Shown piece by piece: positions 22,405 through 26,548 of a stretch of DNA of 43,178 nt (position 1 is the first letter of the stretch; each line of letters begins with the position of its first letter). The notes below the pieces were generated by a model, which saw only the letters and a list, made by a program, of their open reading frames with translations, was not told the origin of the DNA and made no database searches. The stretch lies in assembly GCA_902608175.1 (NCBI GenBank), contig CACLNC010000005.1, positions 1-43,178 of the forward strand. Reading direction: 5' to 3'. The translations under genes were made by a program, and so were the position numbers. The stretch is from an uncultured marine group I thaumarchaeote (GTDB lineage: Archaea; Thermoproteota; Nitrososphaeria; Nitrososphaerales; Nitrosopumilaceae).

Positions 22405-22926
22405 TTATGAAACACTAACTCCAAATTCTTTTGTTACAAAATCCTTTGCTTCATCAGGTGTTATTTTATGATGTTTTCCAATTGTTGCTTTATGCTGACG
22501 TCTAACATTTATGTTGAATCCAGGTCTAGATAATCTCACCGCTATATCTAATGCAAGAATTCCTATTTTAGGATCGTATTTTACACCCTCAATATCTATA
22601 TGTTCTTTAATTGAAAAAGAAAAATTACCAGTACTATCAAATGATCTTGAGCTAATTTTATGATCTTTAGATATTAATAATTTTTTCAATAATTCATTGG
22701 CTCTTGTTCCACGAACTGTTACCGCAACACCAATTGGTTCACCTTTTCTGACACCCCAGTCTCTTAGTGCTTTGTTTGCATTTCTTAGATTAGGTTTTTT
22801 ATCTATGATTTGTTCTAAACCTTTTCTTGCTGTTTCTAGTGGTTCACCTGATTTACCAACACCCATATTCAAAACGACCTTTTCCAAGGAAATTTTTCTC
22901 ATAGTGTTTTCTGTTTGTTGAGACAA
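22405..22926 (-). CDS. rpl5: 50S ribosomal protein L5
   Basis: MRKISLEKVVLNMGVGKSGEPLETARKGLEQI. Confidence 0.96.
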   Translation of the reverse strand: MSQQTENTMRKISLEKVVLNMGVGKSGEPLETARKGLEQIIDKKPNLRNANKALRDWGVRKGEPIGVAVTVRGTRANELLKKLLISKDHKISSRSFDSTGNFSFSIKEHIDIEGVKYDPKIGILALDIAVRLSRPGFNINVRRQHKATIGKHHKITPDEAKDFVTKEFGVSVS

Positions 22927-22930
22927 TTTA

Positions 22931-23296
22931 TCACCTAATTTGCATAACAGGTTTATCTTTTCCTACTGCTATCACTAAACGAATTGGAATTTCTATTAAT
23001 TTATCATCTATAGTAGTAACTATTCTCTTTGTGAGAACAAATGTGCCTTCTTTAATTTCTTTGATCTCGCCAGTTTTTCCAGCATTGATACCACGTGTTA
23101 TCAAGATTTTTGTATTTTTTTCTAATTTTATTACTTCTAAAATTTTCTGTTCAGGTATCTGTAATACACATGAATCATTAACATCAACAAGTTCATCTGA
23201 AATTAATGTTCGACCATCATGGAATTTAATCTGTGTTTTACCACCTTTAATTGACGTTTTTCCTGTAACTTTAACTATTTTTTTTATTTTTTTCAT
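22931..23296 (-). CDS. rps4e: ribosomal protein S4e, C-terminal half in a separate frame
   Basis: VKVTGKTSIKGGKTQIKFHDGRTLISDE...IPEQKILEVIKLEKNTKILITRGINAGKTGEIKEI matches the archaeal S4e central/KOW region; overlaps the N-terminal half ORF. Confidence 0.88.
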   Translation of the reverse strand: MKKIKKIVKVTGKTSIKGGKTQIKFHDGRTLISDELVDVNDSCVLQIPEQKILEVIKLEKNTKILITRGINAGKTGEIKEIKEGTFVLTKRIVTTIDDKLIEIPIRLVIAVGKDKPVMQIR

Positions 23297-23648
23297 CTGT
23301 ATTGATTTTAATTGGTGTCAATATAGTACCATCCTTTGGAACTAATCTATAGGAGTCTGAAATTCCATCTAGTTCAACAACATCCATTAATCCAATACCA
23401 TGATGAAGTGATTTTCTTTTAACACCGTCAATAGTAACTTTACCAGCATAAATTACTGATTTTGCTTCTCTTAATGTTGAAACAATTTTCATCTTATCTC
23501 GTAGTAATACTGCAGTTGGTATAGAGTAATTCTTTTTATGTGTACCAGGTTTCACTGTCACGACAAAACGTTTTTCTTTTCTTGCAATACCCCAAAACAA
23601 TGGAGCCATCTGTCGTTTCAGTTTTTTACTACCAGCTATTTTGACCAT
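23271..23648 (-). CDS. rps4e: ribosomal protein S4e, N-terminal half in a separate frame
   Basis: GSKKLKRQMAPLFWGIARKEKRFVVTVKPGTHKKNYSIPTAVLLRDKMKIVSTLREAKSVI matches the S4e N-terminal/S4 domain. Confidence 0.9.
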   Translation of the reverse strand: MVKIAGSKKLKRQMAPLFWGIARKEKRFVVTVKPGTHKKNYSIPTAVLLRDKMKIVSTLREAKSVIYAGKVTIDGVKRKSLHHGIGLMDVVELDGISDSYRLVPKDGTILTPIKINTDEKNKKNS

Positions 23649-24118
23649 TATTTTTTAACATCCTTTTCTTTTTTTGTTTTTGATAAACTTTTAGTTTTAG
23701 ATTCTTTTGTTTTTTCATTAATTTCTCTTTCTTCAGCTTCTTTTTGCTTTATTTTTTTTAGTGAATCTTTTGAGTTTCCCTGTAGTTTATTCATACGCCA
23801 TTTATCATCATCATTTAATCCTGTTATTATAACATTTGTTGCATGGATTGGTACATCAACTTTCTCACCTTTTGTTTTTTCTCTTTTAACACCATCAACA
23901 TTAATAGAGTTTTTTTGTGTTAGAATTTTTGTTACTTTTCCTGCTGTACCATAAAATTCACCACGTAAAATTTTAACAGTATCACCTTTGACAATCCTTG
24001 CACTTCTTTTTCCAAATTTCTTTCTAAGTTCACTTGATAATGACGCTGCTGTTTGTACACTTCTAACTTTACTAGTTGCATAGTAAATTTGCTTATTTCG
24101 CATTTTTGTCGGTTTCAA
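23648..24118 (-). CDS. rpl24: 50S ribosomal protein L24 with a highly charged C-terminal extension
   Basis: VKGDTVKILRGEFYGTAGKVTKILTQKNSINVDGV; position. Confidence 0.94.
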   Translation of the reverse strand: MKPTKMRNKQIYYATSKVRSVQTAASLSSELRKKFGKRSARIVKGDTVKILRGEFYGTAGKVTKILTQKNSINVDGVKREKTKGEKVDVPIHATNVIITGLNDDDKWRMNKLQGNSKDSLKKIKQKEAEEREINEKTKESKTKSLSKTKKEKDVKK

Positions 24119-26080: not shown

Positions 26081-26548
26081 TTAAATCTCCTGTGCCACCA
26101 CTTCTACATGAGTTAACACATCATTTTTTGGTGTTGATCTTCCCATTGCACGTGGAATAATTCTTTTTATGACTACACCTTTGTGAACAGTCGTGTTAAT
26201 AATTTTGAGTCTATCAAGATCCATTCCCTTGTATTCAGCATTCGATTCTAGGTTATCTAGTAATTTCATAATCTCGGTTGCTGTTTTTTGAGGATATCTT
26301 CCAGACATTACTCCAGGATCAGATTTATGACCAACTTGATTTTTGTATCTACGAAATGGAACACTACTTTCTTGTGTAATCACTCTTTGTAGATAATCTC
26401 TTGCTTTTTCAATTGATAGACCTTTTATCGCAACAGCAACTTCTCTTGCATGTTTGTGGGAAATTTTTTTCTCTCTTAGTGCAGCTTTAACATGTTTTGT
26501 TGAATCAAAGTTTTGAAATGAAAATTTGTATCGTGCCATTATAATCAC
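26081..26548 (-). CDS. rpl22: 50S ribosomal protein L22
   Basis: [26 protein letters not shown]...[17 protein letters not shown]. Confidence 0.95.

Follow-up and report, generated by a model that had tools for sequence, protein, structure and literature searches.

A ribosomal protein S4e gene split at an A7-T-A8 tract in a draft thaumarchaeal genome: most likely a homopolymer error

In archaea, ribosomal protein S4e (eS4) is usually encoded by an uninterrupted gene within the uL14-uL24-eS4-uL5 operon. Indels in homopolymers are known to fragment genes in genome assemblies (Kastor, PMC12007338), and singleton frame transitions in which both parts match one homologue are expected to be sequencing errors (PMC3711429). 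A biological counterpart has also been documented, as reviewed in PMC5009743: in endosymbionts, transcriptional slippage can rescue genes that are broken at long poly(A) runs. Our search of the literature for a split S4e found nothing relevant.

The window analysed here is a stretch of 43,178 nt from the draft genome of an uncultured, ammonia-oxidising marine group I thaumarchaeote. This draft (796 kb, 47 contigs, 65% complete) is AT-rich, with a GC content of 0.33 and many long A runs. The minus strand of the window carries, in order, uL14, uL24, S4e, uL5, uS14, uS8 and uL6, and the coordinates of the relevant features are collected in Table 1. S4e is present as two overlapping frames, 23648-23271 and 23296-22931, which meet at an A7-T-A8 tract, the second frame being +1 relative to the first. 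The overlap is 26 nt long and reads GATGAAAAAAATAAAAAAAATAGTTAA on the coding strand, with A7 at 23293-23287 and A8 at 23285-23278; a preliminary description had reported the split with the same coordinates and overlap, and both are confirmed. Its statement that one A fewer would unite the frames also holds, since the codons after the tract are shifted by +1: the frames rejoin with one base fewer or two more, and a +1 shift anywhere from the TGA at 23320-23318 to the TAA at 23273-23271 has the same effect. In Pfam, the first ORF matches RS4NT (PF08071, 5.9e-12) and also S4 (PF01479), the latter at 22.0 bits, marginally below the cut-off of 22.8, while the second ORF matches Ribosomal_S4e (PF00900, 8.6e-14). 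The domains thus follow the order expected of the family, and the gene keeps its conserved place in the operon; the frame is interrupted between the S4 domain and the central domain. The earlier assignment of an N-terminal/S4 part and a central part is borne out, whereas the KOW part is not, as no KOW domain was reported by Pfam in the second ORF. This is the one S4e locus in the draft, in which no second match was found. Elsewhere in the window, the mechanically called GTG start of uL22 (26081-26548) lacks a Shine-Dalgarno sequence, and the likelier start is an in-frame ATG that follows three codons later.

Table 1. Positions of the two S4e parts, their operon neighbours and the other broken genes of this draft (window positions unless a locus and contig are named).
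Feature	Position	Strand	Description
S4e N-terminal part (RS4NT + S4 domain)	23271..23648	-	ORF of 125 aa, ATG start, TAA stop at 23273-23271
S4e C-terminal part (Ribosomal_S4e central domain onward)	22931..23296	-	ORF of 121 aa, ATG start, +1 frame
A7-T-A8 tract	23278..23293	-	Site of the frame change
uL24 gene	23648..24118	-	Immediately upstream of S4e in the ribosomal protein operon
uL5 gene	22405..22926	-	Immediately downstream of S4e in the operon
GGR_cat (geranylgeranyl-reductase-family) gene, break	L107 8728-8741, contig C1 (about 28.7 kb)		A8, one base too many
Peptidase_M1 (M1 aminopeptidase) gene, break	L215 14352-14365, contig C19		G7 in the active-site GAMEN motif, one base too many
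SDR/epimerase-like gene, weaker break	L113 14516-14568, contig C4 (about 34.5 kb)		Candidate runs A8 and A7

Comparison with close relatives, which the preliminary description had suggested as a check on both the gene and the tract, gave a uniform picture. All 23 congeners with an S4e match carry it as one intact frame of 238-244 aa, and both halves of the split gene align collinearly to this single protein, which takes the split beyond chance. Among the approximately 160 family matches listed, the present draft has the only internal break; the other short frames (G475, G473, G567 and, slightly, G476) sit at contig ends or probably near them. When the tract is compared by codon position, the A runs of the relatives are 4 to 7 long, broken up by C, T or G and always in frame, and neither a run longer than seven nor the A7-T-A8 break was found in the relatives compared. 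Their sequence at this point is EKTKKFV, EKSKKLV or a close variant of these. Because their A runs do not exceed seven, and because DEK-N-KK-IV would then match EK-T-KK-FV, the surplus base is most likely, and most naturally, placed in the second run (A8, 23278-23285). In the protein search, the relatives with names were ammonia-oxidising archaea from several habitats; those closest by genus appear to include Nitrosopelagicus entries, judging from a match of genus to name. The two halves are constrained as in their counterparts, and the C-terminal half shows no decay: it is 60.0% identical to relatives, compared with 60.5% among the relatives themselves, and third codon positions vary most. 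The ratio of half-to-half distances is slightly high (1.56, against 1.30 +/- 0.14 between relatives) because the N-terminal half is well conserved, not because the C-terminal half is worse. As a separate observation, S4e seemingly lies in two frames (N part of 70 aa, central part of 134 aa) in a member of another Thermoproteota family (G404, contig C21, 19922-20429), a draft that is 67% complete; that break is at a different position in the protein.

Sampled stretches amounting to 636 kb of this draft were also scanned against congener proteins, and break candidates at gene boundaries, in antisense ORFs or in extensions upstream of a start were dropped by eye, a matter of judgement. Besides S4e, the scan revealed two firm mid-gene breaks in conserved genes, each with one homopolymer base too many, as would be expected of an assembly prone to homopolymer errors. 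Identity to a congener is 85% and 80% on the two sides of the GGR_cat break, and 68% and 70% either side of the Peptidase_M1 break. The SDR/epimerase-like gene is probably broken at a homopolymer as well. In all four cases, S4e included, the frame after the break is shifted by +1, which is the expectation for one extra base, and since the run in the Peptidase_M1 gene is G7, the run-length effect extends beyond poly(A). Two other drafts of the genus each contain one mid-gene break at an A6 run, in the opposite direction (offset 2), namely G006 at L185 11896-11917 and G013 at L199 1517-1526. The three multi-contig drafts together have 5 to 6 breaks in about 788 kb of aligned coding sequence, compared with no mid-gene homopolymer break in about 912 kb from three one-contig genomes (G001, G132 and G155, contributing 651, 120 and 142 kb). 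Were 6 events distributed evenly over about 1,700 kb, the chance of finding every one of them within the 788 kb of draft sequence would be about 0.01, or about 0.02 for 5 events; resting on 5 to 6 events, this contrast is supportive, not proof. Any homopolymer error rate must also be low, because just two or three breaks arose from the 185 A/T runs of at least 8 within aligned coding sequence.

The break in S4e is very probably the result of one surplus A introduced by sequencing, amplification or assembly. This explanation is favoured because the break is private among the relatives examined and because the same assembly has more over-long homopolymers; an opposing point is the reverse direction of the breaks in G006 and G013. 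The organism itself would carry an ordinary single-frame S4e, about 238 codons long, in the ribosomal protein operon, and the A added to the run during one of these technical steps would break the frame on paper only. We infer a technical origin for the surplus bases, which would be absent from the DNA of the cell, so that the split, although real in the assembly, is most likely no feature of the organism. Alternatively, the extra A could be genomic, with slippage of RNA polymerase on A8 (or on A7-T-A8 as a whole) yielding some in-frame mRNA, as in insect endosymbionts. Slip-prone sequences are often homopolymers of at least 8, or two shorter ones combined (PMC3711429), in two endosymbionts 12-50% of transcripts are reported to be corrected where poly(A) runs are long (PMC5009743), and an AT-rich genome with many long A runs and two conserved S4e halves would suit such a rescue. 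It is nevertheless unlikely here: homopolymer avoidance is evident from nine in many bacteria (PMC1088944), whereas the S4e run is eight, the tract is conserved in no relative, and a stoichiometric ribosomal protein would be inefficiently expressed. A G7 break within a catalytic motif of the same assembly moreover implies a general run-length problem and speaks against a rescue specific to poly(A). Slippage is therefore a possible reading that the observations do not require. A version in which the extra A is real, the RNA polymerase of a marine archaeon slips on A8 runs as a matter of routine, and corrected transcripts, a minority of the total, supply an essential ribosomal protein is quite improbable. 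We know of no indication that this archaeon is an endosymbiont.

Single-base indels in homopolymers are a very common type of frameshift mutation, and an assembly could stand for one cell or a few strains, such that a genuine mutation in the sampled cell or strain, or a recent and ongoing loss of function, might be recorded. However, S4e belongs universally to the archaeal small subunit and was found in one copy only, its two halves are still under constraint, and mutation accounts less easily for several conserved genes being broken in a single assembly; a mutation is accordingly a doubtful explanation with a small chance of being correct. The preliminary description had listed four options without choosing among them, and of these the homopolymer error is now the best supported. 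Its two-gene split, in which translation of the C-terminal part would begin at the internal ATG (23296), has that ATG in frame and a break between domains in its favour, but is very unlikely. Among the 23 congeners and the approximately 160 family matches listed, no relative is split, and the first part ends 26 nt downstream of the ATG, which lies inside the conserved linker. Nor does the second gene have an initiation signal of its own: no Shine-Dalgarno sequence was found before this ATG (duplex energy +1.6 kcal/mol), compared with -5 to -9 kcal/mol for most operon neighbours, including uL24, uL5, uS8 and uL14. This absence is supportive only, because a few of the operon's genuine starts, that of S4e among them, are weak too (-2 to -3). 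Programmed +1 ribosomal frameshifting within the overlap could join the frames between the two stop codons, yet the site is kept in no relative and none of the known types of +1 shift site is apparent, and this is hardly credible. Ordinary -1 frameshifting on A_AAA_AAA is excluded by its direction: A-rich slippery heptamers (X_XXY_YYZ) promote -1 shifts, and the downstream frame of S4e is +1.

Care must be taken with essential genes that are split at homopolymers in AT-rich drafts of uncultured archaea, as such splits are probable errors. If slippage were the true explanation, poly(A) rescue would be extended from endosymbiotic bacteria to an archaeon. The endosymbiont cases (PMC5009743) share with this locus an AT-rich genome, an A run at the break and conservation of both halves; the run here, however, is only 8 A long and unconserved, and another break in the assembly is poly(G). 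Relative to the homopolymer-length errors described for drafts, the events seen here are insertions, whereas deletions are the most homopolymer-tied errors in the long-read assemblies of PMC12007338, which may not represent the platform used here. Common to both (PMC12007338, PMC3711429) are a single-base indel, one intact homologue and several affected genes per assembly. With the usual archaeal eS4 gene, the window agrees in gene order, domain order and summed length, and the interruption of the frame belongs to this assembly only.
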